In this document: piece after piece, positions 177-61,463 of the stretch
Numbering within the stretch: position 1 is the stretch's first letter
Layout of the letters: each line of letters begins with the position of its first letter
From: Siphonodentalium dalli
Taxonomy: Eukaryota > Mollusca > Scaphopoda > Gadilida > Siphonodentaliidae
Direction: 5' to 3'
Assembly: GCA_032622095.1 (NCBI GenBank)
Contig: CP136067.1
Location: forward strand, 48,709,899-48,773,898
Length of the DNA stretch: 64,000 nt
Position numbers and translations under genes: made by a program
Notes under the pieces: model-generated
The model's database searches: none
The model's input: only the letters and a program-made list of their open reading frames with translations
Told to the model about the DNA's origin: nothing

Positions 177-3151
177 CTGTTTGGATTCGAAGAATTCCTT
201 ATACCCGCCATGAAGGATATAGATTTCAGGGTAAAACAGGTTCGGGTAATTCTCTGCGTTCATCTCTCTGTCCTTCTGTCGCAGGTGTCTGAGCCTAGAA
301 AAAATACATTCAGATATAAACCTTGGCTCACGACATAATCATAGCAATAACATATACATGTAGTGAACTGTATTGCTACGTGTATGCTTACATCCGATTA
401 CAAAGAACTTAATAAAATAATTAAATAATGCTCCAATTTCTCCTTTTTAAATTTCATGTTAAACTTAAAGGGGTATACTAAATCCGGCCATATATGGGAC
501 CATCTGCTTTTATATAGAATATAAGCATATAATTAATGAATTTGAGCCATGAATTAGTATGAAATAGTATAATGATAATGAATTTATGACTCCAGGCATG
601 AATTCATTATCATTACAATTACCCTGTCAAGGAGATAGTCCCATAAATTGACGGATTTAGTGTACAGTACCCCTTTAAGGTTTGTTAATTAATACTTTAA
701 TAAACTATGGTTGACATAGAATTGATACTTACATTTTTGGACCGCGTTCAGATGAGAACTCGCAGTGAAAGATGACGATGGTCCGGTGTTTGAGGGGAGC
801 GTCGCCCAGAAACCTCTTCTCGATCATCGCCTGTGTGTGGAGATTCTCAGCATCCTGCAAATAAGAGGTGACTTAGATACAGATCCTAAGACAATACAAA
901 CACTACACAATTCAACCGCAAAATCGGCCGATAGGAAAACTGATTATTATTTTAACAAAAATATATTTTTTTCGGGTATTGTCGATTGTTGGGTGGCTGA
1001 ATTTAGATTATTGACACAAACCACCATTAAGGGTGATACCATACATCTGAATTGATATTCTGAGCGTGTTACAAATTTTATTATTGGACTCATCAACAAA
1101 CAAAAAATCCATTAAGAAATAAAACTATACGGATATACATGTACAATATGTAATTTCAACATATATATTGATATTTGTTACGTAATAAAATAATGTTGTC
1201 AATCAACATAATGCCAATAAGATCATTTAACTTGGCATGATCCTCATTATTTTACAAAAGAAAGAAATCGATTGTTGTGTGAAATTGGCAAATATTAGAA
1301 CAGAGGTCACGTCGGTGACGCACACGTACCTGGATATGACCACCTTCGTACTCATATGGGTATCGACAGTCTACGACCACAAACTCGTCGACGCTGTTGC
1401 TGAATCGGCCTGACATCAAATCTTCCAACTGTAAAAAAAATGAATGACAAATTTCACTACCTATATGTTATAACTGGAACAAATCTACGATGAAGGTATA
1501 CGGTATTTGGATATGTTCCACGTTATTGGTGGACTCGTCCTATAAGAACACGGGACGTCTGGTGAAGAATTTCGAGACATGATTGTATACATCATTTATC
1601 ACACATCTTTCCTAACCTAACTACTTCATTATCTTCACCCATCAATCACACCCCACTCTTTCTCATCCCAACTCGCTTAACTATCCAAACATTTATGAGA
1701 AAACATAGAACTATATTAAAATTGTCGTCTTCTTTACCAAGTAGTTGTCTGTATTGACACGTCACACTTGGGGTAACATTTCAAGAGGAAATAATTTGTA
1801 TCCCATCATAATTTGAACAGTTTGCTTTTCTATCAGTTTGAATTTCAGATATAGAAGGAAGTCCAGATAGTTGGGCACAAAAGCAACATGGGAACATTCA
1901 TATTACATTTATACGACAATCAAATACATGTATTGGAAGTCTCGATTATTGTATACATTAATCATTTGAAAGCACTCACTGTTTGTGGGGAGATGTACTT
2001 AAGATCCTTGTGCCGACCGGAGATGACATGGAGAGTGTGGGTCAGGGTCCCGTCACCAATCAGATCGTCGTTGGAGGTAATCGAGTTCAGAGCTTCTTTA
2101 ATTCTCACGTCGTCTTTGGCTGATTTCTCTACCAGGTGGCGTTTGGCTGCTGGTTCGATGATGTCACACTTATCAGCGATCTGGCGCTTCAGACAGTTGT
2201 CGGAGGATTTTGAACGCCCGAAAAGACATCGAACTGGTCTACGACAGATGGAAAACTGGAAGGGATATATATAGAACAGATATTTACTTGTTTAGATGTT
2301 TGTTTTCCAGTGGCTTAAATACAAAAATTCAACAAATAAAATGTGTGCGTATGATACTGGCAATTGCGTTTGAAGCATTGCAACGCATATATTCATGCTG
2401 AACTGTTTTGGTTTGGGTGGTGCCTGCAGTTGATACATGTATGACCGTTTGTATTATGTTCTTTATATATATATATTGTGTTCATATATACAATCTTCAG
2501 TAATGGAGGATAATTAAAGATATATATCATTGTGGCGTTCTTGGTTTACGTAATTTATAAATAACAATTACACGTACCTCAGACTTAGTTGGTGTTTCTG
2601 ATGGGAGAATCGAACAGAAACTACCCTCATGTTCGCTGATGTGTGCAGCAGTTGGTGTCTGGAAAACAAATTATATTGATTAATGTGGATATAATTAGCC
2701 ATATCAGTTAACATTTAAGTCAAGCAACTCAATTACTATTTCCTGTGAGCAGCATAATATGCCTCTTATACTATATATACAGCATAGACTAATGAAAGAA
2801 AATAGTCGAAAATATGCGAATAAAAAACATAACATAATTTGACCATGTATGTGCCATAATAGAAACGTATACAGGTTCATTACTGTGGTTGCTTTAAAAT
2901 TTTCACATAAACCGAACTGACGAAATAATTTGTGATCGATTCCTTAATACTGCTCTTAAATAAGCACAATGTTTAAACTGAACAATTTTCTCTAAATTAC
3001 GGATAATAGGTCCTTATAAATCACGTTTGTACGAGTTGGCAATTTCTCCTGCTCTAATCCTGCTTACCTCTACGTCTATACCGCTATCTCTGGACGACTC
3101 ATCGACTTGAAGCTTGAAGTCACAAGGGCTCAACAGCTGGATGATATCCAT
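177..3151 (-). CDS. cdc25: Cdc25-type phosphatase, copy A (3' end outside window)
   Basis: Coding exons read leftward: exon 2 3151-3068 (whole exon to 3184), exon 3 2658-2578, exon 4 2255-1980, exon 5 1428-1330, exon 6 854-733, exon 7 294-177. Exon 8 lies off the left edge. All junctions are AG/GT, and phases agree (0 everywhere except exon 6/7, where ATG is split AT|G). Exon 5 encodes [12 protein letters not shown] and exon 6 [11 protein letters not shown], the HCX5R loop of the Cdc25 rhodanese fold. Exon 7 encodes [15 protein letters not shown]. Cdc25 removes inhibitory Thr/Tyr phosphates from cyclin-dependent kinases to start mitosis. The start is chosen at 3151 because it is the first ATG after the leader exon and sits in ACCATGG. 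The regulatory part has SSRDSGID, like the DSG degron of Cdc25A, and GRSKSSD, which may bind 14-3-3. No break is seen. The family call is firm; the start is likely but unproven. Confidence 0.88.
465..678. mobile_element. MITE-like inverted-repeat element in intron 6 of copy A
   Basis: The ends are imperfect inverted repeats of about 40 bp (left aaggggtatactaaatccgg, right ggatttagtgtacagtaccc) bounded by TTAA on both sides. An inner perfect 15-bp inverted repeat pairs 570-584 with 601-615. There is no coding capacity. TTAA flanks suggest a piggyBac-type target, which is inference. Confidence 0.55.
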
Positions 3152-3706
3152 GGTATCGTCTATGTCGAAAGTGATGTTAGGAATCTGAAAGAAAAATGGT
3201 TTCAATTAATTAATTGAAGCAAAAGAGGAATCATTGACGTCTAGCTAGGATATCAACCTACTGTCAGCTACACTATCTATAGATATAGGCAATATATCAC
3301 CAACACTAATATTGCGGGAATTTGATCTATTCTGGTGATATTCTCCGATACGTTCAATTATTTGAAATATTTAATAAAACGCGGAAATATTCAGGCAACT
3401 AAAAATGTATTGGGCAATAAATTGTTGCCGCTAAATTCCATCACCTCGCTAAAGAATGTCAGATAATGAGCACACGCTACATGCCACTGATAAGATATAT
3501 TTGATCCAGTTTATGCGGTCGCCATGGGAATGATAAATGTAAGGGAATACACTATAACTTAAAATAGGTGTATCGACATAGGTGTATTCCCGGTTCGAAA
3601 TGTTAAATAATAGCATTAAGGCTCTGCAAGTACCAGTTTTGAAACATGTGAAATGAATTGAGGTAAACGGTAAAACTGAGAACCACGCGATGACGAGGAT
3701 ACTCAC

Positions 3707-3773
3707 AATGGGTTCAAGGCGAGAAGAGCGAATGAATAAAAAGTCCAAACTTTACTGCTTATAAAGTATATAA
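3707..3773 (-). promoter_or_regulatory. Copy A core promoter and noncoding exon 1
   Basis: On the minus strand a TATA box (CTTTATAAG, 3766-3758) with a second TA-rich motif beside it is followed about 25-30 bp later by a short leader. The leader ends at CATT|gtgagt (donor at 3706). No ATG lies in the leader, and the frame leading into exon 2 has a stop just upstream, so exon 1 is taken as 5' UTR. The start site near 3735 is inferred. Confidence 0.5.
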
Positions 3774-5135: not shown

Positions 5136-6267
5136 TATCTCTAGAGGACTTAATAGGTACACATTATTAACAGATCCGGTTTTGTGTAGACATAATTTTA
5201 AACATACCATATTGTAGATAGTTGAAAGTATTGAGTGTTTATGAATATGCGTTTTCTACTGCAACAAAATGAAATTGAACTGACAAGTTAAGACGGGGCA
5301 CCATTTTATTAACTACGTGCACATATCACGTGACTTCAGTTGAGCTTGGCTTACCATATTGTGCAAGTGATTGAATTTCAACCGACAAAGAGTCACTTCG
5401 TAATATGTCCCTAGCCCATAAGCGCGACTGGTTGCGTTTTCTCGCCTGATAGTGTGAAAGTCTGACCCCTTTATTACTCACCGGAACTAACTTATATGTT
5501 TCGTCGTTAACATTATCACTCCGCGAGGAGCTTATCACTCAGAGGGGAGCTTTACGAATGTGACAAGTTTGAAGAATTCGTTTCGCTTTTTTTTTCAACT
5601 CAGGTTTTGCCCCCAAATTATCCGTAGTAATGGTCAATTCTATACCATTCCAGTGATGTTCGGAAGATCAATATACACGTAGGTCGATAAATACAACAAT
5701 GCGGACTTTATATGCCAACGGAAGACGTGGACCCTATGTCAAGGAGTTCTATAAATATATATAGGGGCACCCTTTTGCATTATTGTTCAGCAACCGCTGG
5801 GCAGATTTAGCTGATATTTGGTATGGTGATAGAACAGCATGGGGGAACAGCTGCATGCATAGCGTGGATTTCGCCCACTTATTTTCACCAGAGTTATGGC
5901 CCTTTTATTTACTTAGAAAATTAAATTTTTCTCTTGTTTTTGGGGTTTCCAGATGATAGCGTGAGCTTTGGTGGTACGATTGCAAACTTAAATCCCGTAG
6001 TTTTGTGGACCAGTTATATGAAAATACATGTCAAGTGCGAATTTGGGTATGATCTGATTTTGCCAGAGTTATGGCGGTCGCCATGCGAATGATAAATGTA
6101 AGGGAATACATTATAACTTAAAATATGTGTATCGACATAGAGATGTATTCCCGGTTCGAAATGTTAAATAATAGCATTAAGGCTCTGCAAGTACCAGTTT
6201 TGAAACATGTGAAATGAATTGAGGTACTCGGTAAAACTGAGAACCACGCGATGACGAGGATACTCAC

Positions 6268-6330
6268 AATGGGTTCAAGGCGAGAAGGGCGAATGAATAA
6301 AACGTCCAAACTTTACTGCTTATAAAGTAA
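6268..6330 (-). promoter_or_regulatory. Second copy of the promoter/exon 1 block upstream of copy A
   Basis: The block 6073-7030 repeats 3524-4460 (about 95% by eye), including the TATA box (6327-6319), leader and donor (CATT|gtgagt at 6267). It joins the surrounding repeat at 'agttatggc|ggtcgcc'. Copies B and C lack it. It could act as an alternative upstream promoter for copy A. Confidence 0.4.
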
Positions 6331-8088
6331 GGGACAGAATGTTGTTTATTTTGAGAATACGTGAGAAACGATTCGCGATGTTGTATGATAACAAATTGTA
6401 ACACATCGGGATCGCGTGGCAGAATGTTGCTCACGGATACGGCTGCCTATCACAACTCGGGGCGTTAAAATTACACAGATAGTGGGAAGAGCAGCGTCGA
6501 TGCGCATGACAACGTGTTAGATTTCCTGTTCAGAAGTGTTTAGTCGCATGTTTGGAAGTGAGATAACAGTTTGTGAGTGAAATTCAGCCCAGGAACTGTC
6601 AAATATATTGTTTACAACTTATCAACTATGTCAGCAATTTGGTCAGTCGGTGGTTTGCTGAAGATGAATAACGATCAATGGGGGATCACGAACCTCCCGA
6701 AGGCCCACAAACTATACTAACACTGACAAGGCGCTTCTTTTTTTTATCTTCTGAAGAAACATCGGGACCTAACTTTTCTAAATTCTATGAATTGAACAGA
6801 TCTGTCTCGGGCACATATAGTCCGGACAATGTACGTAACGTATGTTACCACCAATGTGATGAGAATTCAACAATCTTATGCGACCTACTAACTTCAATAT
6901 GATACTCTTTATTCCGGCCTCCACGGTGAAGAGCAGTGAGGTTTTTTAATTGTATCTTGTTTCTATTAACAAATTCGTGGAAAGTATATATAAACAGCAA
7001 AAACCCAAATGTAAAAGACAAACCCAAATGTAAAAGTCAATTAGCACATATCAGCGCGGAACGGGTGTTGTAACTTAATAGGTACACATTATTAACAGAT
7101 CCGGTTTTGTGTAGACATAATTTTAAACATACCATATTGTAGATAGTTGAAAGTATTGAGTGTTTATGAATATGCGTTTTCTACTGCAACAAAATGAAAT
7201 TGAACTGACAAGTTAAGACGGGGCACCATTTTATTAACTACGTGCACATATCACGTGACTTCAGTTGAGCTTGGCTTACCATATTGTGCAAGTGATTGAA
7301 TTTCAACCGACAAAGAGTCAATTCGTAATATGTCCCTAGCCCATAAGCGCGACTGGTTGCGTTTTCTCGCCTGATAGTGTGAAAGTCTGACCCCTTTATT
7401 ACTCACCGGAACTAACTTATATGTTTCGTCGTTAACATTATCACTCCGCGAGGAGCTTATCACTTTACGAATGTGACAAGTTTGAAGAATTCGTTTCGCT
7501 TTTTTGTTCAACTCAGGTTTTGCCCCCAAATTATCCGTAGTAATGGTCACTTCTATACCATTCCAGTGATGTTCGGAAGATCAATATACACGTAGGTCGA
7601 TAAATACAACAATGCGGACTTTATATGCCAACGGAAGACGTGGATCCTATGTCAAGGAGTTCTATAAATATATATAGGGGCACCCTTTTGCATTATTGTT
7701 CAGCAACCGCTGGGCAAATTTAGCTGATATTTGGTATGGTGATAGAACAGCATGGGGGAACAGCTACATGCATAACGTGGATTTCGTCCACCCATTTTCA
7801 CCAGAGTTTTTGCCCTTTATTTACTTAGAAAATTAAATTTTTCTCTTGTTTTTGGGGTTTCCAAATGATAGCGTGAGCTTTGGTGGTACGATTGCAAACT
7901 TAAATCCCATAGTTTTGTGGACCAGTTATATGAAAATACATGTCAAGTGCGAAAATGCCACGCGACAGCGTACCTCTTGTTACATACAGCCGACTAAGGG
8001 TATGTTCTAAGAGCTGGAAAACTTCGCAATTGGTCTTATATTTATGTGGCGCGTGTTGGAAAGGGATGAATCACTATGAATTTAGTTT

Positions 8089-9169
8089 TTAGTAGGACCC
8101 TCTTTTGTGAATTCGGTATGCACCACGTGACCAGAAAGAGCTTGTATTATCAGATTGAGTAACGGATTGAATTTCATCAGCCAGCAAAGAGCCATTTCCC
8201 ATATGGCACCAGCCAATGCAGATGTGACAGTCGGCCTTTTCCGATTGGAGGGTGCAATAAGCCGGTCCTTTAAAGGACAGATAATTTTGGCCAGATGCTA
8301 AGTGAACAGTCAATATAGTTTAGTTATATGTGTTATTATATTACCACACACATTTGGAATTTATTAGTGTCGAGATCCTTTTTTCGCCACGAAGATTAGA
8401 AGGCCCCTACCTGGTCACTATACCACGGGTTCCTGTCAGATTAGTCATAAAACAAAAAGTACCTATATATTAGACTTATATATAGGTAAGTTTCGCAGAA
8501 GTGAAGCAAACGCTCTTTATTTTTTGCCTTATCATCCATAAACTGGCAAGCAATACTGCTCTTTATTATTCCACCGACATTTTTTATTTTCGGAACTGGA
8601 CGGTGTGTGCGGAAAAGCTAGAACAATTCCACGGTGATTGAAATGGCAACCCAAAATGAACAGTGACAGATTACAATTTAATATACATCCGTTATAATTC
8701 AAACTATGGACAAACGCCCGTTTTATGAGCATATATAAATACACGATTTGATATCCAATAGTACTTACTATATTGACTGTTCTGATTGCATATTTTTTGG
8801 AGTTTTACTGAGAGTTACAATAAAAACAATCTAAAACGATTATCTCGATCCTGACCATGAAGCGAGGAAACCATACATGCATCAATTTAATGGATCTGGT
8901 TGAATTCTCCATATAGTTGACGTGAAGGCCACATAAGAACATGAGAATGAGTAATCGTAACTTACCTTGCGCGCCTGTGTATGAACCGGGAATATAGAAC
9001 TCTAGGCTACCATATAGTTGACGCGAAGGCCACATAAGAACATGCGAATGAGTAATCGTAACTTACCTTGCGCGCCTGTGTATGAGCCGGGAATATAGAA
9101 CTCTAGGCTACCGAGTACCACTCGTATTAGCTTACGTTTTGCTGTATATACAGGGTTTCGATTCCTCAT
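8089..9169 (-). CDS. Candidate three-exon gene of unknown function (unit A)
   Basis: Not recognised. Exon a 9169-9067 starts ATG (MRNRNPVYTAKRK...) with an in-frame stop upstream and ends CAAG|gtaagt. Exon b 8807-8769 (39 bp) lies between CTCTCAG and gtaagtac. Exon c 8297-8089 follows TTCACTTAG and ends TAA. Phases fit (1, 1), and the joined frame is open for 116 codons. Exon c is Cys-rich (ADCHICIGWCHMGNGS). Exons a and b with their splice sites recur at least five times in the window, and where a deletion removed bases at the exon b acceptor (near 50926) an AG is still present. In unit B exon c has a one-base deletion. There is no database match to offer, and decayed repeat DNA remains possible. 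It lies between Cdc25 copies B and A, same strand. Confidence 0.28.
8461..8487. repeat. 10-bp perfect hairpin
   Basis: acctatatat (8461-8470) pairs with atatataggt (8478-8487) across a 7-base loop. Copies occur near 17500, 50586 and 54470. Confidence 0.6.
8910..9113. repeat. About 100-bp tandem duplication over exon a of the candidate gene
   Basis: The block 'catatagttgacg' to 'gaactctaggctacc' occurs twice in unit A and once in unit B. Confidence 0.8.
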
Positions 9170-10202
9170 AAGGATTTCCCAAAATGAAGCCGCTTAATGA
9201 GATAATGTTGTTTCGGCAATAACAAGGTTTCCTATTTCTGGATCTTTAATAATCCTCTTATGGGAATTAAAATCCTCGGGTCCTTCGTCAACAAATTCCA
9301 CAAGCATCACACTTTGACAGTTTGACCAAAACAATATAATTTAGTATTGCTCACTCTTAATGAAATTTCAAAACGAGACATTGTCTTGTGTTTGATGTAC
9401 TTAAAACGGAAGGAACATGTACATATTATGTTATTAGATGCAAGTGGCAACAGGACTTCCGGTCGTGGAGAAAATCACACTCTGGGCTAGACGAGGTCAT
9501 GGGTTCGAACTTCGAACAAATACTATAAAACTAAAATTATTGTAATGTGGTTGTTACTTTGGAATTACACATTTTATTATAAAATTATAGCATACAAATT
9601 TGTATTACGTAATTAGTAAATTCCCAAGTAACACTCACGTTACAATAAAATTTTTTTTATTATGGTGATCAACTGTATTTCTACCAATGTATGTCTCTCA
9701 CTGTTGATTTAGTTTCAAGATACATGACGAAAACTTCATTAACAACATGCCTCCACGAGAAATGATATTCAACAGATCTTCTGGGACAGTATTGGGCCAT
9801 GGGTTGAGGGAACTCGCAATGTGCCATTCTCGTCGATAGAGTAGTAACATAAGTTTGACAACAATATTTATTTACAATGTAGCACGTTATGTGAAACAAT
9901 ATATATTAACAATAATTTAGCGAGCTCTTTACAGCATATACATTTTATAAATAACAATAACAGTATCACAGCTAAGCTTGAAAACAAAACAAATATCTCA
10001 CACACCAAGCAGTTCATATATTGCTACCCAAATGACGTTTTTTTGGGGTTGGGGTGTATTAATAAATAGACATGTGACTACCCGTCAAGTACGCTGATCA
10101 AATCTTAAACACTTGGTGCACTGGTGTCTGAGAAATAACATGACAACAAATAACAAATAACAACAAACAACAGAGTAACAACAACTTGATGACGACGAAC
10201 AG
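9170..10202. other. 3' flank of copy B
   Basis: The first 350 bases after the stop (reading leftward) are T-rich with TTGTTATTTG runs and reach AATAAA at 9872-9867, so they are a plausible 3' UTR. The rest holds the tRNA-like remnant and no supported gene. Confidence 0.5.
9440..9520 (+). repeat. tRNA-like (SINE-derived?) remnant in the Cdc25 3' flank
   Basis: It contains a B-box-like ggttcgaac in 'gaggtcatgggttcgaactt', with a possible A box (tggcaacagg) about 60 bp before it. Copies lie near 18430, 28580, 51510 and 55390. No cloverleaf is convincing, so this is a remnant at best. Confidence 0.25.
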
Positions 10203-13200
10203 CTAGAATCTCAGCGACCTCTTCCTCTGACCGTTGGACCAGGACTTGGATTTGGCTCGGAAGTGACGTAGCTGAGATGAGTAATCCTGGTGCAGCATAG
10301 GTCGATATGACTGTGGGGTGCAGAGAGTCTGGGAAGAGTAATATATAGCAAATAAGAACACAATAATATTCACAATTTCACGAATTATATGCAGAAGAAG
10401 TACTTGTTCGGGTGCTGAAACACCGTTGCATCGACAGTGGACTACATTTGTTGCAATTACTATACACATGCGTGTATTAAACGTGAGCTTATTGGTACGA
10501 TGTCTTGTCATCATAGTTCGTTAGGTACACGTACAGCGTTGAAACGAATTTCGAAAATGTAGTGAAACAAAACGCACCTGTTTGGATTCGAAGAATTCCT
10601 TATACCCGCCATGAAGGATATAGATTTCAGGGTAAAACAGGTTCGGGTAATTCTCTGCGTTCATCTCTCTGTCCTTCTGTCGCAGGTGTCTGAGCCTAGA
10701 AAAAATACATTCAGATATAAACCTTGGCTCACGACATAATCATAGCAATAACATATACATGTAGTGAACTGTATTGCTACGTGTATGCTTACATCCGATT
10801 ACAAAGAACTTAATAAAATAATTAAATAATGCTCCAATTTCTCCTTTTTAAATTTCATGTTAAACTTAAAGGGGTATACTAAATCCGGCCATATATGGGA
10901 CCATCTGCTTTTATATAGAATATAAGCATATAATTAATGAATTTGAGCCATGAATTAGTATGAAATAGTATAATGATAATGAATTTATGACTCCAGGCAT
11001 GAATTCATTATCATTACAATTACCCTGTCAAGGAGATAGTCCCATAAATTGACGGATTTAGTGTACAGTACCCCTTTAAGGTTTGTTAATTAATACTTTA
11101 ATAAACTATGGTTGACATAGAATTGATACTTACATTTTTGGACCGCGTTCAGATGAGAACTCGCAGTGAAAGATGACGATGGTCCGGTGTTTGAGGGGAG
11201 CGTCGCCCAGAAACCTCTTCTCGATCATCGCCTGTGTGTGGAGATTCTCAGCATCCTGCAAATAAGAGGTGACTTAGATACAGATCCTAAGACAATACAA
11301 ACACTACACAATTCAACCGCAAAATCGGCCGATAGGAAAACTGATTATTATTTTAACAAAAATATATTTTTTTCGGGTATTGTCGATTGTTGGGTGGCTG
11401 AATTTAGATTATTGACACAAACCACCATTAAGGGTGATACCATACATCTGAATTGATATTCTGAGCGTGTTACAAATTTTATTATTGGACTCATCAACAA
11501 ACAAAAAATCCATTAAGAAATAAAACTATACGGATATACATGTACAATATGTAATTTCAACATATATATTGATATTTGTTACGTAATAAAATAATGTTGT
11601 CAATCAACATAATGCCAATAAGATCATTTAACTTGGCATGATCCTCATTATTTTACAAAAGAAAGAAATCGATTGTTGTGTGAAATTGGCAAATATTAGA
11701 ACAGAGGTCACGTCGGTGACGCACACGTACCTGGATATGACCACCTTCGTACTCATATGGGTATCGACAGTCTACGACCACAAACTCGTCGACGCTGTTG
11801 CTGAATCGGCCTGACATCAAATCTTCCAACTGTAAAAAAAATGAATGACAAATTTCACTACCTATATGTTATAACTGGAACAAATCTACGATGAAGGTAT
11901 ACGGTATTTGGATATGTTCCACGTTATTGGTGGACTCGTCCTATAAGAACACGGGACGTCTGGTGAAGAATTTCGAGACATGATTGTATACATCATTTAT
12001 CACACATCTTTCCTAACCTAACTACTTCATTATCTTCACCCATCAATCACACCCCACTCTTTCTCATCCCAACTCGCTTAACTATCCAAACATTTATGAG
12101 AAAACATAGAACTATATTAAAATTGTCGTCTTCTTTACCAAGTAGTTGTCTGTATTGACACGTCACACTTGGGGTAACATTTCAAGAGGAAATAATTTGT
12201 ATCCCATCATAATTTGAACAGTTTGCTTTTCTATCAGTTTGAATTTCAGATATAGAAGGAAGTCCAGATAGTTGGGCACAAAAGCAACATGGGAACATTC
12301 ATATTACATTTATACGACAATCAAATACATGTATTGGAAGTCTCGATTATTGTATACATTAATCATTTGAAAGCACTCACTGTTTGTGGGGAGATGTACT
12401 TAAGATCCTTGTGCCGACCGGAGATGACATGGAGAGTGTGGGTCAGGGTCCCGTCACCAATCAGATCGTCGTTGGAGGTAATCGAGTTCAGAGCTTCTTT
12501 AATTCTCACGTCGTCTTTGGCTGATTTCTCTACCAGGTGGCGTTTGGCTGCTGGTTCGATGATGTCACACTTATCAGCGATCTGGCGCTTCAGACAGTTG
12601 TCGGAGGATTTTGAACGCCCGAAAAGACATCGAACTGGTCTACGACAGATGGAAAACTGGAAGGGATATATATAGAACAGATATTTACTTGTTTAGATGT
12701 TTGTTTTCCAGTGGCTTAAATACAAAAATTCAACAAATAAAATGTGTGCGTATGATACTGGCAATTGCGTTTGAAGCATTGCAACGCATATATTCATGCT
12801 GAACTGTTTTGGTTTGGGTGGTGCCTGCAGTTGATACATGTATGACCGTTTGTATTATGTTCTTTATATATATATATTGTGTTCATATATACAATCTTCA
12901 GTAATGGAGGATAATTAAAGATATATATCATTGTGGCGTTCTTGGTTTACGTAATTTATAAATAACAATTACACGTACCTCAGACTTAGTTGGTGTTTCT
13001 GATGGGAGAATCGAACAGAAACTACCCTCATGTTCGCTGATGTGTGCAGCAGTTGGTGTCTGGAAAACAAATTATATTGATTAATGTGGATATAATTAGC
13101 CATATCAGTTAACATTTAAGTCAAGCAACTCAATTACTATTTCCTGTGAGCAGCATAATATGCCTCTTATACTATATATACAGCATAGACTAATGAAAGA

Positions 13201-13552
13201 AAATAGTCGAAAATATGCGAATAAAAAACATAACATAATTTGACCATGTATGTGCCATAATAGAAACGTATACAGGTTCATTACTGTGGTTGCTTTAAAA
13301 TTTTCACATAAACCGAACTGACGAAATAATTTGTGATCGATTCCTTAATACTGCTCTTAAATAAGCACAATGTTTAAACTGAACAATTTTCTCTAAATTA
13401 CGGATAATAGGTCCTTATAAATCACGTTTGTACGAGTTGGCAATTTCTCCTGCTCTAATCCTGCTTACCTCTACGTCTATACCGCTATCTCTGGACGACT
13501 CATCGACTTGAAGCTTGAAGTCACAAGGGCTCAACAGCTGGATGATATCCAT
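10203..13552 (-). CDS. cdc25: Cdc25-type phosphatase, copy B, complete
   Basis: This is the best complete copy: exon 2 13585-13469 (ATG 13552-13550), exon 3 13059-12979, exon 4 12656-12381, exon 5 11829-11731, exon 6 11255-11134, exon 7 10695-10578, exon 8 10328-10203 with stop TAG at 10205-10203. The product is 301 aa: residues 1-147 regulatory, about 140-301 catalytic, active-site Cys211 and Arg217 in HCEFSSER. The C-terminal exon encodes [10 protein letters not shown], then a basic tail ending KRSLRF, as in the Cdc25 family where this tail contacts the Cdk substrate. KRQ and AKRH clusters near residues 78-100 may be a split nuclear signal. A possible poly(A) signal AATAAA lies at 9872-9867. 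The copy is almost identical to copies A and C, so it is a recent duplicate. The regulatory region is much shorter than in vertebrate or fly Cdc25. Confidence 0.9.
10866..11079. mobile_element. MITE-like element, intron 6 of copy B
   Basis: Same 214-bp element as 465-678, carried along by the duplication. Confidence 0.55.
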
Positions 13553-14107
13553 GGTATCGTCTATGTCGAAAGTGATGTTAGGAATCTGAAAGAAAAATGG
13601 TTTCAATTAATTAATTGAAGCAAAAGAGGAATCATTGACGTCTAGCTAGGATATCAACCTACTGTCAGCTACACTATCTATAGATATAGGCAATATATCA
13701 CCAACACTAATATTGCGGGAATTTGATCTATTCTGGTGATATTCTCCGATACGTTCAATTATTTGAAATATTTAATAAAACGCGGAAATATTCAGGCAAC
13801 TAAAAATGTATTGGGCAATAAATTGTTGCCGCTAAATTCCATCACCTCGCTAAAGAATGTCAGATAATGAGCACACGCTACATGCCACTGATAAGATATA
13901 TTTGATCCAGTTTATGCGGTCGCCATGGGAATGATAAATGTAAGGGAATACACTATAACTTAAAATAGGTGTATCGACATAGGTGTATTCCCGGTTCGAA
14001 ATGTTAAATAATAGCATTAAGGCTCTGCAAGTACCAGTTTTGAAACATGTGAAATGAATTGAGGTAAACGGTAAAACTGAGAACCACGCGATGACGAGGA
14101 TACTCAC

Positions 14108-14174
14108 AATGGGTTCAAGGCGAGAAGAGCGAATGAATAAAAAGTCCAAACTTTACTGCTTATAAAGTATATAA
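14108..14174 (-). promoter_or_regulatory. Copy B core promoter and noncoding exon 1
   Basis: Same arrangement as copy A: TATA box 14167-14159 and leader ending at donor gtgagt (14107-14102). Confidence 0.5.
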
Positions 14175-15479: not shown

Positions 15480-15480
15480 C

Positions 15481-15535
<55 letters not shown>
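15480..15535. repeat. CT microsatellite (unit B)
   Basis: Same site as 5078-5131, one CT unit longer. Confidence 0.95.
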
Positions 15536-15538
<3 letters not shown>

Positions 15539-24363: not shown

Positions 24364-24364
24364 C

Positions 24365-24403
<39 letters not shown>
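24364..24403. repeat. CT microsatellite (unit C)
   Basis: Same site, shorter. Just right of it (24420) the A/B/C homology ends. Confidence 0.95.
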
Positions 24404-43700: not shown

Positions 43701-43864
43701 AAAAAAAATAGGTACACATTATTAAGAGATCCGGTTTTGTGTATATGTAAACATAATTTTAAACATACCATATTGTAGATAGTTGAAAGTATTGAGTGTT
43801 TTTATATATGAATATGCGTTTTCTACTGCAACAAAATTAAATTGAACTGACAAGTGCTGAGATA
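40730..43864. other. Upstream/intergenic region of copy E
   Basis: Near-identical to 33338-36476. Confidence 0.5.
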
Positions 43865-47300: not shown

Positions 47301-47470
47301 AATTGTTTCTCTAAATTACGGATAATAGGTCCTTATAAATCACGTTTGTACGAGTTGGCAATTTCTCCTGCTCTAATCCTGCTTACCTCTACGTCTATAC
47401 CGCTATCTCTGGACGACTCGTCGACGTGAAGCTTGAAGTCACAAGGGCTCAACAGCTGGATGATATCCAT
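44260..47470 (-). pseudogene. cdc25: Cdc25-type phosphatase, copy F, truncated in exon 6
   Basis: Exons: exon 2 47503-47387 (ATG 47470-47468), exon 3 47001-46921, exon 4 45832-45557, exon 5 45005-44907, exon 6 first 51 bp 44400-44350. The truncation point and the fused foreign segment are the same as in copy E, with the run-on stop at 44260, so the break happened once and was then duplicated. The E-F repeat period is about 7.39 kb and the two are nearly identical. Exon 4 differs from E by few residues (AIKPPAKRQ against AIEPPAKRQ). No active-site loop, exon 7 or exon 8 remains. Confidence 0.8.
46337..46576 (+). other. Unrecognised 80-codon open frame in intron 3 of copy F
   Basis: Same 240-bp open frame, antisense to copy F. 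Confidence 0.25.
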
Positions 47471-48031
47471 GGTATCGTCTATGTCGAAAGTGATGTTAGG
47501 AATCTGAAAGAAAAGTGGTTTCAATTAATTAATATGGCAAAAGAGGACGTATTGACGTCAACTCGGATATCAACCTACAATCAACTACACTCTCGATAAA
47601 TATAGGCCATATATTAATAATATAATAAATTTATACTGTGAGAATTTGATCTATTCTGGTAATATTCTCCGATACGTTCATTTATTTGAAATATTTAATA
47701 ACACGCGGAAATATTCAGGCAACTAAAAATATATTGGGCAATAAATTGTTGCCGCTAAATTCCACCACCTCGCTAAAGAATGTCAGACAATGAGCATATG
47801 CTACATGCCACTGATAAGATATATTTGATCCTGTTTACGCGGTGGCGATGTGAATGATAAATATAAGGGAATACATTATAACTTAAAATATGTGTATCGA
47901 CATAGAGGTGTATTCCAGTTCGAAATTTTAAATAATAGCATTAGGGCTCTACAAGTACCAGTTTTGAAACATTTGAAATGGATTGAGGTACACGGTAAAA
48001 CTAATAACCACGCGATGACGACGATACTCAC

Positions 48032-48094: not shown

Positions 48095-51000
48095 GGGACA
48101 TAATGTTGTTTATTTTGAAAATACGTGAGAAACGATTCGCGATGTAGTATGATAACAAATTGTAACACATCGGGATCGCGTGGCAGAATGTTGCTCACGA
48201 ATACGGTTGCCTATCACAACTCGGGGCGTTAAAATTACACAGATAGTGGGAAGAGCAGCGTCGATGCGCATGACAACGTGTTAGATTTCTTGTTCAGAAG
48301 TGTTTAGTCGCATGTTTGGAAGTGAGATAACAGTTTGTGAGTGAAATTCAGCCCAGGAACTGTCAACTATATTGTTTACAACTTATCAACTATGTTAGCA
48401 ATTTAGTCAGTCGGTGATTTGCTGAAGATGAATAACGATCAATGGGGGATCACGAACCTCACGAAGGCCCACAAAATATACTAACAGTGACACTGCGCTT
48501 TTTTTTTATCTGCTGAATAACATCGGGACCTAACTTTTCTAAATTCTATGAAATGAACAAATCTGTATCGGGCACAATTAGTCCGGACAATGCATGCACC
48601 AATGTTACCACCAATGTGATGAGAATTCAACAATTTTATGCGACCTACTAGCTTCAATATAATACTCTTTATTCCGGCCTCCACGTATTCCGGCTTCCAC
48701 GATGAAGAGCAGTGAGGTTATTGAATTGTATGTTTTTCTATTCACAAATTCGTGGAGAGTGTATATAAACAACAAAAAAACAATTGTAAAAGACAAATCC
48801 AAATGTAAAAGTCAGTTAGCACATATCAGCGCGGAACGGGTGTTGTAACTTAAAAAAAAATAGGTACACATTATTAAGAGATCCGGTTTTGTGTATATGT
48901 AAACATAATTTTAAACATACCATATTGTAGATAGTTGAAAGTATTGAGTGTTTATATATGAATATGCGTTTTCTACTGCAACAAAATGAACTGACAAGTT
49001 AAGACGGGACACCATTTTATTAACTACGCGCACATATCACGTGACTTCAGTTGAGCTTGGCTTACCATATTGTGCAAGTGATTGAATTTCAACCGACAAA
49101 GAGTCACTTCGTACTATGTCCCTAGCCCATAAGCGCGACTGGCGGCATTTTCTCGCCTGATAGTGTGAAAGTCTGACCCCTTTATTAATCACCGGAACCA
49201 ACTTATATGTTTCGTCGTTAACATTATCACTCCATGAGGAGCTTATCACTCCGAGGGGAGCTTTGCGAATATGACAAGATAGAAGAATTCGTTTCGTTTT
49301 TTTTTCAACTCAGGTTTTGCCCCCAAATTATCCTTAGTAATGCTCACTTCCATAACATTCCAGTGATGTTCGGAAGATCAATATACACGTATGTCGATAA
49401 ATGCAACAATGCGGACTTCATATGCCAACGGATGACGTATACAGGCCCTACGTAAGTCACTGAGTTCTATAAATATATATAGGGACACCATTAAACAATA
49501 AAGAGCGTTCATTGACAGTATATTCATGACATGTTTCTAAAGAGCATATTTCTAACTCTTGTGTGGAAACAGTTTCTAATGCTCATGTGAATTTATTTTT
49601 GGAGATATATTTATGCAGTCTGTATGACGACATTTCATCTGATTATATTGATCATACATATATACTACCACATTGCGTAACTATGTATAGGCGTAACCAT
49701 ATAAAGAGCGTTTTAGGTTCAATGTTTAACTGAGTTCAACCCTCCGCACAACAGTGAGGCAAACGCGCTATATTTTCACCACACCGGGAACATAACTCTT
49801 GTGAATTTATTTTTGGAGATATATTTATGCAGTCTGTATGACGACATTTCATCTGATTATATTGATCATACATATATAATACCACATTGCGTAACTATGT
49901 ATAGGCGGAACCATATAAAGAGCGTTTTAGGTTCAATGTTTAACTGAGTTCAACCCTCCGCACAGTAGTGAGGCAAACGCGCTATATTTTTACCACACAG
50001 GGAACATACATAACTGAACGCTCTTTATAGTGTTACATACAGCCGACTAAGAGTATGTTCCAAGAGCTGGAAAACTTCGCAATTGGTCTTATATTTATGT
50101 GGCGCGCGTTGGAGCTTATCACTCCAAGAGGAACTTTGCGAATATGACAAGTTTGAAGAATTCGTTTTGTTTTTCAATTCAGGTTTTGCCCCCGAATTAT
50201 CCTTATTAATGGTAACTTCTATAACATTCCAGTGATGTTCGGAAGATCAATATACACGTAGGTCGATAAATACAACAATCCGGACGACGTAGGCCTTATG
50301 CCAAGGAGTTCTATAAATATATATAGAGGCACCATGAAACAATAAAGAGCGTTCATTGACAGTATATTCATGACATGTTTCTAAAGAGCATATTTCTAAC
50401 TCTTGTGTGGAAACATATTTTTACCACATCGGGAACATACATAACTGAACGCTCTTTATATTGTTACATACAGCCGACTAAGGGTATGTTCTAAGAGCTG
50501 GAAAACTTCGCAATTGGTCTTATATTTATGTGGCGCGTGTTGGAAAGGGACGAAGCACTAGGAATTTAGTTTTTACACAAAAAGTACCTATATATTAGAT
50601 TTATATATAGGTAAGTTACACATTAGTGAAGCAAACGCTCTTTATTTTTTTGCCGTATCATCAATAAACTGGCAAGCAATACAGCTCTTTGTCGACTTTT
50701 TTATTTTCGGAACTGGACAGGGGTGTGCGGAAAAGCGAGAACAATTCCACGGTGATTTAAGTGGCAACCCAAAATGAACAGTGACAGTTTACAATTTAAT
50801 ATGCATCCGTTATAATTCAAACTATGGACAAACCCCCGTTTTATGAGCATATATAAATACACGATTTGATATCCAATAGTACTTACTATATTGACTGTTC
50901 TGATTGCATATTTCTTGGAGTTTTACTATAAAAACAATCAAGTAGAGTGTCTAAAACGATTATCTCGATCCTGACCACGAAGCGAGGAAACCATACATGC

Positions 51001-52442: not shown

Positions 52443-52916
52443 CTAGAATCTCAGCGATCTCTTTCTCTGACCGTTGGACCAGGACTTTGACTTGGCTCGG
52501 AAGTGACGTAGCTGAGATGAGTAATCCTGGTGCAGCATAGGTCGATATGACTGCGGGGTGCAGAGCGCCTGGAAAGAGTAATATATAGCAAATAAGTACA
52601 AAATAATACTTTCACAGTTTCACGAATTATATGTAGAAAACGTACTTGTTGAGGTGCTGAAACACCGTTGCATCGACAGTGAACTACATTTGTTGCAATT
52701 ACTCTACACATGTGTGTATCAAACGTGAGCTTATTGGCACAATGTCTTGTCACCATATTTTGAAACGAATTTCGAAAATGTAGTGAAACAAAACGCACCT
52801 GTTTGGATTCGAAGAATTCCTTATATCCGCCATGAAGTATATAGATTTCAGGGTAAAACAGGTTCGGGTAATTCTCTGCGTTCATCTCTCTGTCCTTCTG
52901 TCGCAGGTGCCTGAGC
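52443..52916 (-). pseudogene. cdc25: Cdc25 fragment G: exons 7 and 8 only
   Basis: Exon 7 is 52916-52799 and exon 8 is 52568-52443, both with good splice sites and open frames ([37 protein letters not shown]). About 150 bp to the right of exon 7, within intron 6, the sequence jumps (about 53066) to intergenic block sequence otherwise found at about 49180. Exons 1-6 and a promoter are therefore missing. It is a dead 3' fragment unless used as downstream exons by a transcript from further right. Confidence 0.85.
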
Positions 52917-53065: not shown

Positions 53066-56000
53066 TTATTAATCACCGGAACCAACTTATATGTTTCGTC
53101 GTTAACATTATCACTCCATGAGGAGCTTATCACTCCGAGGGGAGCTTTGCGAATATGACAAGATAGAAGAATTCGTTTCGTTTTTTTTTCAACTCAGGTT
53201 TTGCCCCCAAATTATCCTTAGTAATGCTCACTTCCATAACATTCCAGTGATGTTCGGAAGATCAATATACACGTATGTCGATAAATGCAACAATGCGGAC
53301 TTCATATGCCAACGGATGACGTATACAGGCCCTACGTAAGTCACTGAGTTCTATAAATATATATAGGGACACCATTAAACAATAAAGAGCGTTCATTGAC
53401 AGTATATTCATGACATGTTTCTAAAGAGCATATTTCTAACTCTTGTGTGGAAACAGTTTCTAATGCTCATGTGAATTTATTTTTGGAGATATATTTATGC
53501 AGTCTGTATGACGACATTTCATCTGATTATATTGATCATACATATATACTACCACATTGCGTAACTATGTATAGGCGTAACCATATAAAGAGAGTTTTAG
53601 GTTCAATGTTTAACTGAGTTCAACCCTCCGCACAACAGTGAGGCAAACGCGCTATATTTTCACCACACCGGGAACATAACTCTTGTGAATTTATTTTTGG
53701 AGATATATTTATGCAGTCTGTATGACGACATTTCATCTGATTATATTGATCATACATATATAATACCACATTGCGTAACTATGTATAGGCGGAACCATAT
53801 AAAGAGCGTTTTAGGTTCAATGTTTAACTGAGTTCAACCCTCCGCACAGTAGTGAGGCAAACGCGCTATATTTTTACCACACAGGGAACCTACATAACTG
53901 AACGCTCTTTATAGTGTTACATACAGCCGACTAAGAGTATGTTCCAAGAGCTGGAAAACTTCGCAATTGGTCTTATATTTATGTGGCGCGCGTTGGAGCT
54001 TATCACTCCAAGAGGAACTTTGCGAATATGACAAGTTTGAAGAATTCGTTTTGTTTTTCAATTCAGGTTTTGCCCCCGAATTATCCTTATTAATGGTAAC
54101 TTCTATAACATTCCAGTGATGTTCGGAAGATCAATATACACGTAGGTCGATAAATACAACAATCCAGACGACGTAGGCCTTATGCCAAGGAGTTCTATAA
54201 ATATATATAGAGGCACCATGAAACAATAAAGAGCGTTCATTGACAGTATATTCATGACATGTTTCTAAAGAGCATATTTCTAACTCTTGTGTGGAAACAT
54301 ATTTTTACCACATCGGGAACATACATAACTGAACGCTCTTTATATTGTTACATACAGCCGACTAAGGGTATGTTCTAAGAGCTGGAAAACTTCGCAATTG
54401 GTCTTATATTTATGTGGTGCGTGTTGGAAAGGGACGAAGCACTAGGAATTTAGTTTTTACACAAAAAGTACCTATATATTAGATTTATATATAGGTAAGT
54501 TACACATTAGTGAAGCAAACGCTCTTTATTTTTTTGCCGTATCATCAATAAACTGGCAAGCAATACAGCTCTTTGTCGACTTTTTTATTTTCGGAACTGG
54601 ACAGGGGTGTGCGGAAAAGCGAGAACAATTCCACGGTGATTTAAGTGGCAACCCAAAATGAACAGTGACAGTTTACAATTTAATATGCATCCGTTATAAT
54701 TCAAACTATGGACAAACCCCCGTTTTATGAGCATATATAAATACACGATTTGATATCCAATAGTACTTACTATATTGACTGTTCTGATTGCATATTTCTT
54801 GGAGTTTTACTATAAAAACAATCAAGTAGAGTGTCTAAAACGATTATCTCGATCCTGACCACGAAGCGAGGAAACCATACATGCATCAATTTAATGGATC
54901 TGGTTGAATTATGCCATATAGTTGACGTGAAGGCCACATAAGAACATGAGAATGAGTAATCGTAACTTACCTTGCGCGCCTGTGTATGAACCGGGAATAT
55001 AGAACTCTAGGCTACCGAGTACCACTCGTATTAGCTTTCGTTTTGCTGTATATATAGGGTTTCGATTCCTCATAAGGATTTCCCAAAATGAAGCCGCTTA
55101 ATGAGATAATGTTGTTTCGGCAATAACAAGGTTTCCTATTTCTGGATCTTTAATAATCCTCTTATGGGAATTTAAATCGTCGGGTCCTTCGTCAACAGAT
55201 ACCACAAGCATCCCACTTTGACCAAAAAAAATAATTAAGTATTGCTCACTCTTAATGAAAATTCAACACGAGACATAGTCTGGGGCTTGTACTGAAAACG
55301 GAACGAACAAGTACATATTATGTTATTAGATGCAAGTGGCAACAGGACTTCCGGTCGTGGAGAAAATCACTCTGGGCTAGACGAGGTCATGGGTTCGAAC
55401 TTCGAACATATACTATTAAACTAAAATTATTGTAATGTGGTTGTTACTTTGGAATTACACATTTTATTACAAAATTATAGCATACACATTTTGTATTACA
55501 AAATTAGTAAATTCCAAAGTAACACTCACGTTACACTAATTTTTTTTTATTATGGTAATCAACTGGATTTCTACCAATGAATGTCTCTCACTGTTGATTT
55601 AGATTCAACATACATGACGATAACTTCATTAATAACATGCCTCCACGAGAAATGATATTCAACAGATCTTCTGCATGGGACAGTATTGGGCCCTGGATTG
55701 AGGGAACTCGCAATGTGCCATTCTCGTCGATAGAGTAGTAACAAAAGTTTGACAATAATATTTATTTACAATGTAGCACGTTTTGTGAAACAATATATAT
55801 TAACAATAATTTAGCGATCTCTTTACAGCATATACATTTTATAAATAACAATAACAGTATCACAGCTAAGCTTGAAAACAAAACAAATATCTCACACACC
55901 AAGCAGTTCATATATTGCTACCCAAATGACGTTTTGGGGGGGGGGTGTATTAATAAATAGTTAGTCAAGAAAGACATGTGACTACCCGTCAAGTACGCTG

Positions 56001-56161
56001 AACTACGTGACAGTGTCGTTAAACAGGGCTGAACATCATCTGAACGTCGAAAATGTACGCTGATCAAATCTTAAACACTTGGTGCACTGGTGTCTGAGAA
56101 ATAACATGACAACAAATAACAACAAACAACAGAGTAACAACAACTTGATGACGACGAACAG
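53066..56161. other. Intergenic region between fragment G and the exon 8 piece
   Basis: Repeats 49180-51600, then a Cdc25 3' flank of the A/B/C-like type. No promoter/exon 1 block is present, so fragment G has no recognisable promoter of its own. Confidence 0.5.
54771..55073 (-). pseudogene. Candidate unknown gene, exons a-b (G/H interval)
   Basis: Duplicate of 50887-51189 at an offset of 3884 bp, with the same splice sites (exon a 55073-54971, exon b 54809-54771). Confidence 0.2.
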
Positions 56162-56960
56162 CTAGAATCTGAGCGACCTCTTCCTCTGACCGTTGGACCA
56201 GGACTTGGATTTGGCTCGGAAGTGACGTAGCTGAGATGAGTAATCCTGGTGCAGCATTATGGTAATCAACTGGATTTCTACCAATGTATGTCTCTCACTG
56301 TTGATTTAGATTCAACATACATGACGATAACTTCATTAACAACATGCCTCCACGAGAAATTATATTCAACAGATCTTCTGCATGGGACAGTATTGGGGCT
56401 TTGTCGAGGGAACTCGCAATGTGGCATTCTCGTCGATAGAGTAGTAACATAAGTTTGACAACAATATTTATTTACAAAGTAGCACGTTTTGTGAAACAAT
56501 ATATATTAACAATAATTTAGCGATCTCTTTACAACATATACATTTTATAAATAACAATAACAGTATCACAGCTAAGCTTGAAAACAAAACAAATATCTCA
56601 CACACTAAGCAGTTCATATATTGCTACCCAAATGACGTTTTTTTTGGGGGGGTTGTATTAATAAATAGTCAAGAAAGACATGTGACTACCCGTCAAGTAC
56701 GCTGAACTACGTCACAATGTCGTTAAACAGGGCTGAACATCATCTGAACGTCGAAAATGTACGCTGATCAAATCTTAAACACTTGGTGCACTGGTGTCTG
56801 AGAAATAACATGACAACAAATAACAAATAACAACAAACAACAGAGTAACAACAACTTGATGATGACGAACAGCTAGAATCTCAGCGACCTCTTCCTCTGA
56901 CCGTTGGACCAGGACTTGGACTTGGCTCGGAAGTGACGTAGCTGAGATGAATAATCCTGG
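55554..56960. repeat. Direct duplication of about 705 bp covering Cdc25 3' flank and part of exon 8
   Basis: 55561 matches 56266. The first unit ends inside exon 8 at about 56257. Confidence 0.85.
56162..56257 (-). pseudogene. cdc25: Cdc25 fragment: last 96 bp of exon 8
   Basis: This holds the C-terminal codons of exon 8 down to the TAG at 56164-56162. At about 56257 it joins abruptly to 3'-flank sequence that repeats from about 55554. The arrangement is a direct duplication of about 705 bp (55554-56257 against 56259 onward) whose right end falls inside exon 8. Only a silent CTG-to-CTC change is seen near the stop. No complete gene is attached. Confidence 0.8.
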
Positions 56961-57530
56961 TGCAGCATAGGTCGATATGACTGCGGGGTGCAGAGCGCCT
57001 GGAAAGAGTAATATATAGCAAATAAGTAAAAAATAATATTCACAGTTTCACGAACTATATGTAGAAAAAGTACTTGTTGAGGTGCTGAAACACCGTTGTA
57101 TCGACAGTGGACTACATTTGTTGCAATTACTCTACACATGCGTGTATCAAACGTGAGCTTATTGGCACAATGTCTTGTCACCATATTTTATTAGGTATAT
57201 GTACAGCGTTGAAACGAATTTCGAAAATGTAGCGAAACAAAACGCACCTGTTTGGATTCGAAGAATTCCTTATATCCGCCACGAAGGATATAGATTTCAG
57301 GGTAAAACAGGTTCGGATAATTCTCGGCGTTCATCTCTCTGTCCTTCTGTCGCAGGTGTCTGAGCCTAGAAAAAATACATTCAGATATAAACCTTCGCTC
57401 ACGACATAGCAATCACATATACATGTAGTGAACTGTATTGCTAGTTGTATGCTTACATCCGATTACAAAGAACTCAATTAAATAATGCTCCAATTTCTCC
57501 TTTTAATTTTCATGTTAAACTTAAAGGGGT

Positions 57531-57693
57531 ACTGTATACTAAATCCGGCCATATATGGGACCATCTGCTTTTATATCGAATACACGCATAAAATTAATGA
57601 ATTTGAGCCATGGATTAGTGTAAAATACACGTGTACTCTATGCACGATGCAAACAACATGGTAATTATAATGAAAATGAATTTAGTGTTTTAA
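57531..57693. mobile_element. Damaged MITE-like element, intron 6 of copy H
   Basis: Same left end and same right-end deletion as in copy D. Confidence 0.45.
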
Positions 57694-59799
57694 GGTTTGT
57701 CAATTAGCCTATTCCATTCATATGTTAATACATTAATCAAATACGGTTGACATAAAATTGATACTTACATTTTTGGACCGCGTTCAGATGAGAACTCGCA
57801 GTGAAATATGATAATGGTCCGGTGTTTGAGGGGAGCGTCGCCCAAAAAACCTCTTCTCGATCATCGCCTGCGTGTGGAGATTCTCAGCGTCCTATAAATA
57901 AGAGGTGACTTAGATACAGATCCTAAGACAATACAAACACTACACAATTCAACCGCAAAATCGGCCGATAGGAAAACTGAGCATTATTATAACAAAAATA
58001 TAATTTTGTTCGGGTATTGACGATTGTTAACAATGGGTGGCTGCATTTAGATTCTTGACACACACCACCATTAAGAGTGATACAATAAATCAGAATTGAT
58101 AGTCTGAGCGTGTTACCAATTTAATTATTGGACTCATTATCAGCAAAAACAAAAGATACGGATATACATGTACAAATTTGTAATACATGTATATGTAATT
58201 TCAACATATATATTGATATTTGTTACGTAATAAAATAATGTTGTCAATCAAAATAATGCCAATAAGATAATTTAACTTGACATGATCCTCATTATTTTAC
58301 AAAAGAAATAAATCGATTGCTGTGTCATATTGCCAAATATTAGAGCAGAGGTCATGTCGGTGACACACACGTACCTGGATATGTCCACCTTCGTACTCAT
58401 ATGGGTATCGACAGTCTACGACCACAAACTCGTCGATGCTGTTGCTGAATCGGCCTGACATCAAATCTTCCAACTGTAAACAAAAATTATGAATTTCACT
58501 ATCTATATTTTAAAACTGAAACAACTATACGATGAAACTACGGCAACTGGATATTTTAGCATATTTGGTTTACTCATCCTATAAGAACACTGGACGTCTA
58601 GTGAAGAATTTCGAGACATGACTGTATACACCATTTATCACACATCTTTCCTAACTACTTTATTATCTTCTCCCTTCTATCACACCTCACTCTTACTCAT
58701 CCCTGCACTCGCTTAACTATTCCAACATTTATGAGAGAACAGAGAACTATATTTGAATTTCCGCCTTCTTTACATTGTAGCTGCCTGTATTGAAACTTGG
58801 GGTAACATTTACATAGCAATTATTTTTATAAAAGCCATAGGCTTGTTATCCCGTCATAATTTGAACAGTTTACTTTTCTATCAGTTTGAATTTCAGATAT
58901 AGATGGAAGTCCAGATAGCTGGGCACAAAAGCAACATGGAAACATTCATATGACATGTATGTCACAATCAAATACATGCATGTCTCGATTATCGAATAAA
59001 TACATTAATACGTTGAAATCACTCACTGTTTGTGGGGAGATGTACATGAGGTCCTTGTGTCGATCTGAGATGACACGGAGGGTGTAGCTCGAGGTCCCGT
59101 CACCGATCAGATCAACGTTGGAGGTCATGGAGTTCAGAGCTTCTTTAATTCTCATGTCGTCTTTGTCTGATTTCTCTAACAGATGGCGTTTGGCTGGTGG
59201 TTCGATGACATCACATTTATCGGTGATCTGGCGTTTCAGACAGTTGTCGGAGGATTTTGAACGTCCGAAAAGACATCGAACTGGTCTACGACGGATGGAC
59301 AACTGGAAGCGAAATATTTAGAACAGTGATACATGTATCAAAATATCATATAATTATTTGCTTAGCTGTTTGTATTTAAATACATAAATTATAAGCTTAA
59401 ATGCCACACCTACACTATGGAAATATGGCTTCTTGTCTTAGGGTGGATACACACATGCATGTAATCTCTGTAATTATCGTGTATTTGGCGTTTTACACCG
59501 ATAATACAGACAATGTAACATGTGTCCACTGACAACCCAATCATTGCGGACGTGTTGACCGCACTGAGTTCTAGTTCCAATTAAGGAATGTAGAGAAGCC
59601 GCTCTCTTGGACCGAGTCGCCAGGCCACTTAAAATACTTGTTCGTGGGATAACCCAGATGGTGGACGTTCTATTTAAATAATTATTAGTCCTCTCTTGAT
59701 ATTTATAGCAGTGGTGGATCCGGATTTCCCCGACGCAGGGGCTATATATATATGATCCCGAAAGCTACCAGGCGGGATGGCTAACTCTGAGCTATTTAA

Positions 59800-60039
59800 G
59801 TAAAACATTATATTGTACCTTCTTGCGCAGATTATTCCGACCGATATACAACTAAGTCCCTTAGCGATTTGAAGCTTTCAATACCCCATGCCAAACAAGC
59901 ATCATGGTCGAACATATTCTATATGAAGCCTGTATATGCCAGACGTGTCGCTTCTGGTGTTCGTGCATTAATAAAATGTCACACAGAGTTGACTAATTTC
60001 CGCATCCGTAAGAGAAGACGTGTTTTGGACTGGCCTTAA
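59800..60039 (+). other. Unrecognised 80-codon open frame in intron 3 of copy H
   Basis: Same 240-bp frame with base changes (GP to IP near the middle) but no frame break, antisense to copy H. Confidence 0.25.
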
Positions 60040-61463
60040 ATGTCCTGATAGCAGACAGTTTGACTTCGCTTATCACTACTCACTTGTCTGGCATGTTAAC
60101 AATGAACGCTCGCAGATATTTAATGTTGTCAATTATTGGTGTGGCCATGTAAAATACATGTATTTTACACACAGAAATTACATGCATGTGTGTATCCACC
60201 CTTAGGATGCTGAAATGCTTTCCTAAATTAATGATAAACTGTATTCGTGTATAGGTTTCTTGGTGTTAATTGTCCGGCCATAATTTTAGCCGGTCCTATA
60301 TGGTTTTTGTCAAATCTTATTAACCTATTAATGTGGCGTTCATTGTTTTCTTAATTTTAGAAATAATAATATAACGTACCTCAGACTTAGTAGGTGTTTC
60401 TGATGGGAGAAACGAACTGAAGCTACCCTCATGTTCGCTGATGTGTGCAGTAGTTGGTGTCTGGAAAAAAAATTATATTCATTAATGTGGATATAATTAG
60501 CCATATCAATTAACATTTATGTCAAGGAACTCAATTACTATTTCCTGTGTGGAACATTCTGTGCCTCTTATATTATACATTATAGCATAGAATATTGAAA
60601 GAAAATAATCGAAAATATGCGAATAAAATACATAACATAATGTGAGCATGTAGGTGTCATAATACATACGTTCGTGTTCATTACTGAGGTTGCGTTCGAA
60701 TCTTCGCATAAAACGAACTGACGAACTAACTTGTGATCTATTACTTAATACTGTTCTTAAATAGGTCCTAATAAATCACGTTTGTACGAGTTGGCAATTT
60801 CTCCTGCTCTAATCCTGCTTACCTCTACGTCTATACCGCTATCTTTAGACGACTCGTCGACGTGAAGCTTGAAGTCACAAGGGCTCAACAGCTGGATGAT
60901 ATCCATGGTATCGTCTATGTCGAAAGTGATGTTAGGAATCTGAAAGAAAAATGGTTTCAATTAATTAATATGGCAAAAGAGGACGTATTGACGTCAACTC
61001 GGATATCAACCTACAATCAACTACACTCTCGATAAATATAGGCTATATATTAATAATATAATTAATTTATACTGTGAGAATTTGATCTATTCTGGTAATA
61101 TTCTCCGTTACGTTCATTTATTTGAAATATTTAATAACACGCGGAAATATTCAGGCAACTAAAAATATATTGGGCAATAAATTGTTGCCGCTAAATTCCA
61201 CCACCTCGCTAAAGAATGTCAGACAATGAGCACACGCTACATGCCACTGATAAGATATATTTGATCCAGTTTACGCGGTGGCGATGTGAATGATAAATAT
61301 AAGGGAATACATTATAACTTAAAATATGTGTATCGACAGGTGTATTCCAGTTCGAAATTTTAAATAATAGCATTAGGGCTCTACAAGTACCAGTTTTGAA
61401 ACATTTGAAATGGATTGAGGTACACGGTAAAACTAATAACCACGCGATGACGACGATACTCAC

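Follow-up and report, generated by a model that had tools for sequence, protein, structure and literature searches.

Almost all of the window (the whole 64 kb stretch of DNA that was analysed) is made of head-to-tail duplicated units, each carrying a whole or partial Cdc25 phosphatase gene on the minus strand. Exons (E1 to E6) were defined in one copy, c2, by reading frame and splice sites, and were then mapped across the whole window. This exon-by-exon mapping yielded eight complete or partial copies (c1 to c8) and one scrap of the last exon. The original prediction had listed eight complete or partial copies and a 96-bp scrap, all on one strand, between positions 177 and 60906. The mapping bore out this count and the span fits as well: position 177 is the low edge of E5 of c1, and the ATG of c8 begins at position 60906. 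The features of the locus are as follows.

177-3184, minus strand: c1, E1-E5 (3184-3068, 2255-1980, 1428-1330, 854-733, 294-177), ATG at 3151, exons identical to those of c2
6260-6753, minus strand: orphan upstream block, not associated with a gene
10203-13585, minus strand: c2, E1-E6 complete and open (13585-13469, 12656-12381, 11829-11731, 11255-11134, 10695-10578, 10328-10203), ATG at 13552, CDC25B match and Rhodanese domain
14100-14600, minus strand: upstream block of c2, conserved, containing the 82-bp stretch 14369-14288
19128-22511, minus strand: c3, all of E1-E6 present and open, with the same exon sequences as c2
29526-32746, minus strand: c4, lacking E2, with E1 and E3-E6 forming an open frame and a Rhodanese domain in the predicted product
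36468-36958, minus strand: foreign segment of 491 bp, joined to the broken E4 of c5
36959-40138, minus strand: c5, E1-E3 plus 54 bases from the start of E4, without HCEFSSER, E5 and E6
43856-44346, minus strand: second copy of the foreign segment, at the E4 break of c6; the two copies are 99.6% identical and the segment is absent from the other units
44347-47503, minus strand: c6, same structure as c5
52443-52916, minus strand: c7, E5 and E6 only
56150-56257, minus strand: E6 scrap, 96 coding bases (56257-56162) and 12 others
56873-60939, minus strand: c8, E1-E6 all present, ATG at 60906

Self-comparison of the window gave 252 repeat pairs at E ≤ 1e-20, all of them direct and none inverted. 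With a looser search using one unit, three short inverted matches were found in spacers (123-137 aligned bases, 75-77% identity). The window was also painted with the unit 10089-19013: most of the 64 kb is composed of head-to-tail pieces of this single unit, and some stretches are uncovered. Shared flanking DNA and head-to-tail order on one strand are both present in the Cdc25 copies. Identities among units are graded, from 100% down to about 85%, and the array continues beyond the left end of the window at least. Loss of introns, as expected of retroposed genes, was not seen: adjacent exons, wherever they are present in a copy, keep their intervening sequence.

The assignment to the Cdc25 family had been made from three quoted motifs (35 residues in all). 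These were located on the minus strand, one copy of the YPEIY motif reading LRGGYKEFF, and the assignment was confirmed by comparison with solved structures. The joined exons 2-6 of c2 matched CDC25B at E=9.6e-62, with an alignment over 184 query residues, a value that excludes a chance identity. Among the matched sequences of solved structures, 12 of the 14 were CDC25A, CDC25B or CDC25C, and the other two were yeast YGR203W. The Rhodanese-like domain (PF00581) was found by Pfam above its cut-off of 22.2 in c2 (41.9 bits) and c4 (42.6 bits). The HC(X)5R signature of the active site, which reads HCEFSSER, is in frame in c1 to c4, encoded but out of frame in c8 and absent from c5, c6 and c7.

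The coding sequence of c2 is divided among six exons (117, 276, 99, 122, 118 and 126 bases), and all exon junctions of c2 and c3 are GT-AG. In E1, 33 bases precede the ATG, whose context is ACCATGG; this start codon and the first exon are predicted. The predicted product has 274 residues and would comprise the catalytic domain with HCEFSSER and a short leader. Human CDC25A has about 520 residues. The array gene is similar to the M-phase inducer phosphatases CDC25A/B/C (e.g. PDB 1cwr, 1c25 and 3op3) in the catalytic domain, over a stretch of 24 residues and the GGYKEFF region, and likewise has a Rhodanese-like domain (Pfam), but its predicted product is shorter, with only a short leader, and Pfam recognized no N-terminal M-inducer region in it. 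This region (which we take to be PF06617) gave no match at E ≤ 0.1 with the full c2 and c4 products or at E ≤ 1 with exons 2-6, in searches where the HMMER filters drop most weak matches. The leader contains DSGIDVE and PVRCLF, which may be akin to a beta-TrCP degron and a cyclin-docking motif. The possibility of an additional small exon separating E3 from E4 was rejected, since the alignment with CDC25B is continuous in its absence. A coding exon upstream of E1 (open frame 14152-13853) was not accepted, since its silent bias was not significant (c2-c8, p=0.20; c2-c5, p=0.80); a coding first exon may lie elsewhere.

The copies differ in their state. Two of the eight (c2 and c3) are intact inside the window, or three when c1 is counted, which is open as far as it is visible and whose E6 lies off the left end of the window. 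In c3, about 40 bp were lost directly upstream of the E1 acceptor, a loss that might harm splicing. In c4, the loss of E2 does not disturb the frame, since the end of E1 and the start of E3 both fall between codons; the missing exon encodes the beginning of the catalytic domain. The catalytic exons are partly or wholly absent from c5, c6 and c7. In c8, one extra T within a T run of E4 causes a frameshift ahead of the active site, and this T is possibly a sequencing error. Three copies, c1, c2 and c3, appear able to make a whole enzyme, and c4 and c8 are doubtful. The locus had been described as a local amplification of a dose-sensitive activator. The amplification stands, as a tandem array on one strand, but not as eight doses: about three copies look intact. 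The array does not amount to eight genes because c4 is without E2, c8 is frameshifted and c5 to c7 lack the active-site motif.

Divergence was then estimated between copies. Two older gene lineages can be recognized, c1-c3 and the others, with dS of about 0.15-0.2 and dN of about 0.01 in the catalytic exons. Between c2 and c4, the catalytic exons differ by 13 silent changes (96.8 sites) and by 4 amino-acid changes (365.2 sites; p=9e-7); the corresponding changes are 9 silent and 1 amino-acid between c2 and c7 (p=4e-6), and 7 silent and 2 amino-acid between c2 and c8 for E5-E6 (p=4e-4). Silent changes being many and amino-acid changes few, the catalytic domain was therefore long under selection. 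E2 evolves faster (c2-c8: 14.5 silent and 16.5 amino-acid changes, p=0.003), and the introns differ by 8-24% in the c2-c8 and c2-c4 comparisons. These data bear on whether the whole array could be a dead field of pseudogenes, the working Cdc25 being elsewhere in the genome. The short leader lacking a Pfam N-terminal match and the damage in 5/8 copies are compatible with this, as is the weakness of the silent bias among the decayed copies, which was undetectable between c8 and c6 (p=0.71) and between c8 and c5 (p=0.46), in comparisons with few changes. However, all six exons of c2 and of c3 form an open frame and have standard junctions, and the strong silent bias of the catalytic exons between the lineages is opposed to it, so that we consider a wholly dead array improbable.

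Within the c1-c3 lineage, the copies are nearly identical. No difference was found between c1 and c2 over 4600 bp, one alignment of 6077 columns having no mismatch and two gaps; c2 and c3 differ at 3 of 4871 aligned bases, with 43 gap columns. By comparison, c5 and c6 show 50 differences in 5935 aligned bases. With zero differences between c1 and c2, recent duplication, gene conversion and duplicated assembly are each possible. The last of these would mean that c1 and c2, and perhaps c3, are one locus assembled repeatedly, the number of intact genes being inflated. The near-identity of the three copies is what such an artefact would produce, but the surroundings of c1 and c2 differ past the shared stretch, including the orphan upstream block at 6260-6753, and the divergence of the other units (0.8% to about 15%) is too large for one repeated error. 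An assembly duplication is thus possible but unlikely. A sign of exchange within the array is given by the E6 scrap, which is closer to the c1-c3 type (1/108 differences) than to c8, its neighbour, from which it differs at 4/108 positions; few bases are involved.

The conserved block upstream of c2 starts about 0.7 kb upstream of E1. Its 82-bp stretch (14288-14369 and copies) is identical in 8 of the 8 upstream blocks that carry it, in surroundings that differ by several percent. Two further fragments consist of the outer edge of the block alone. A TATA-like box and a donor-like GTGAGT come after it. We infer that the upstream block is a promoter with a non-coding first exon, the 82 bp being read as the promoter core. 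The constancy of this stretch and the identical exons of c1-c3 would both be expected if the array were selected for dosage, identical intact copies being kept and homogenized for a high Cdc25 need, for example in an egg store or in the germ line. Division timing in fly embryos is set by the Cdc25 level (PMC8228447). Against selection for dosage, five of the eight copies (c4-c8) are damaged, as expected under neutral turnover, and identity also arises from very recent duplication without selection. We regard dosage selection as an unlikely explanation, and a neutral birth-and-death array also explains the anatomy of the locus. The sequence gives no indication that the array serves a maternal, germline or selfish function.

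The locus is probably a birth-and-death tandem gene array whose working genes, c1-c3, were recently copied or homogenized. Successive rounds of unequal exchange would have amplified a unit of roughly 7-10 kb, comprising a single Cdc25 gene and the region upstream of it, into head-to-tail copies; this process is suggested by the direct orientation, the shared flanks, the retained introns and the chimeric junctions. Two lineages diverged with the catalytic domain preserved. In the c4-c8 lineage, exons were lost, genes were joined to the foreign 491-bp piece or a frameshift was acquired. In the c1-c3 lineage, recent duplication or homogenization to exon identity left three genes for the predicted 274-residue Cdc25. 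The predicted enzyme would remove inhibitory phosphates from Cdk1, as other Cdc25s do, and the effective dose would come only from the intact copies. A far more elaborate proposal is that the locus is actively homogenized and selected for dosage of a shortened Cdc25, that c4, c5 and c6 are expressed as docking decoys and that copy-number change tunes division timing; we give it very little credence.

Birth-and-death tandem arrays typically hold immune, sensory or detoxification genes. The present array shares with those formed by unequal crossing-over the head-to-tail units with flanks, the graded ages, the chimeras, the pseudogenes and the homogenized copies, but the gene is here a dose-sensitive core cell-cycle regulator. 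The protein and the gene structure suggest an animal host. That such an array is unusual for an animal, as had been proposed, was supported by comparison with two model animals. Like the array species, both have more than one Cdc25 per genome: two homologues in Drosophila, string and twine (PMC8228447), and four cdc-25 genes in C. elegans (PMC3814331). In these animals the genes are few and separate, whereas here they are head-to-tail, near-identical and accompanied by decayed copies; the comparison covers gene number and arrangement. In a literature search that covered neither most subscription journals nor bioRxiv preprints and in which some queries were narrow, no recognizable report of a tandem Cdc25 array was found.

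The Cdc25 level helps to set when cells divide, and extra neighbouring copies of such a gene would be expected to carry a cost. In PpV mutant fly embryos, an average increase of about 47% in Twine accompanies an additional mitosis in 30-50% of the embryos (PMC8228447). Several adjacent intact copies, if real, would be unusual because the Cdc25 level matters in fly embryos and because the animals checked have few genes. They would then make this animal a natural experiment on how additional doses of a mitotic activator are tolerated or exploited; otherwise, the locus is a birth-and-death array open to misreading as eight genes. The control of mitotic entry by this gene is also the sole point in favour of a selfish origin, in which the array would lie on a B chromosome, a germline-restricted chromosome or a sex chromosome and the extra mitotic activator would aid the spread of that element. 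The window holds no pointer to such a chromosome and Cdc25 is absent from the literature matches listed on this topic; we consider this origin extremely improbable.

The units were examined for other genes. Pfam scans in all six frames of 24400-34000 and 12700-19100, and in five of the six frames of 34000-39600, gave nothing above cut-off. Three matches below cut-off were obtained in these scans, all at a CT repeat near 15.5 kb (DUF3915 twice and Atrophin-1). Matches to PAXNEB, SidM_Rab1-act, OspG_kinase and Git3 in single open frames (10, and 4 beside the Cdc25 query) were also below cut-off and were taken as due to chance. In the same search for a second gene, no tRNA was found and no Rfam match reached the gathering score. 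No relative of Cdc25 was found in viral contigs.

Read on the minus strand, the 491-bp segment includes the terminal part of an open frame together with an AATAAA signal, and it resembles the 3' end of another gene or of a mobile element. The 121-aa frames containing it had no Pfam match, and 104 residues from it had no relative in viral contigs. A foldback of about 120 bp (18458-18577) matches its own reverse complement at 76% and has relatives near 9.5-9.6 kb and 55.4-55.6 kb; it may be a small mobile element. The spacers contain tandem repeats of two copies each, their periods being 101, 176 and 214 bp, at 8909-9112, 25595-25945, 49582-50008, 53466-53889 and 63141-63567.
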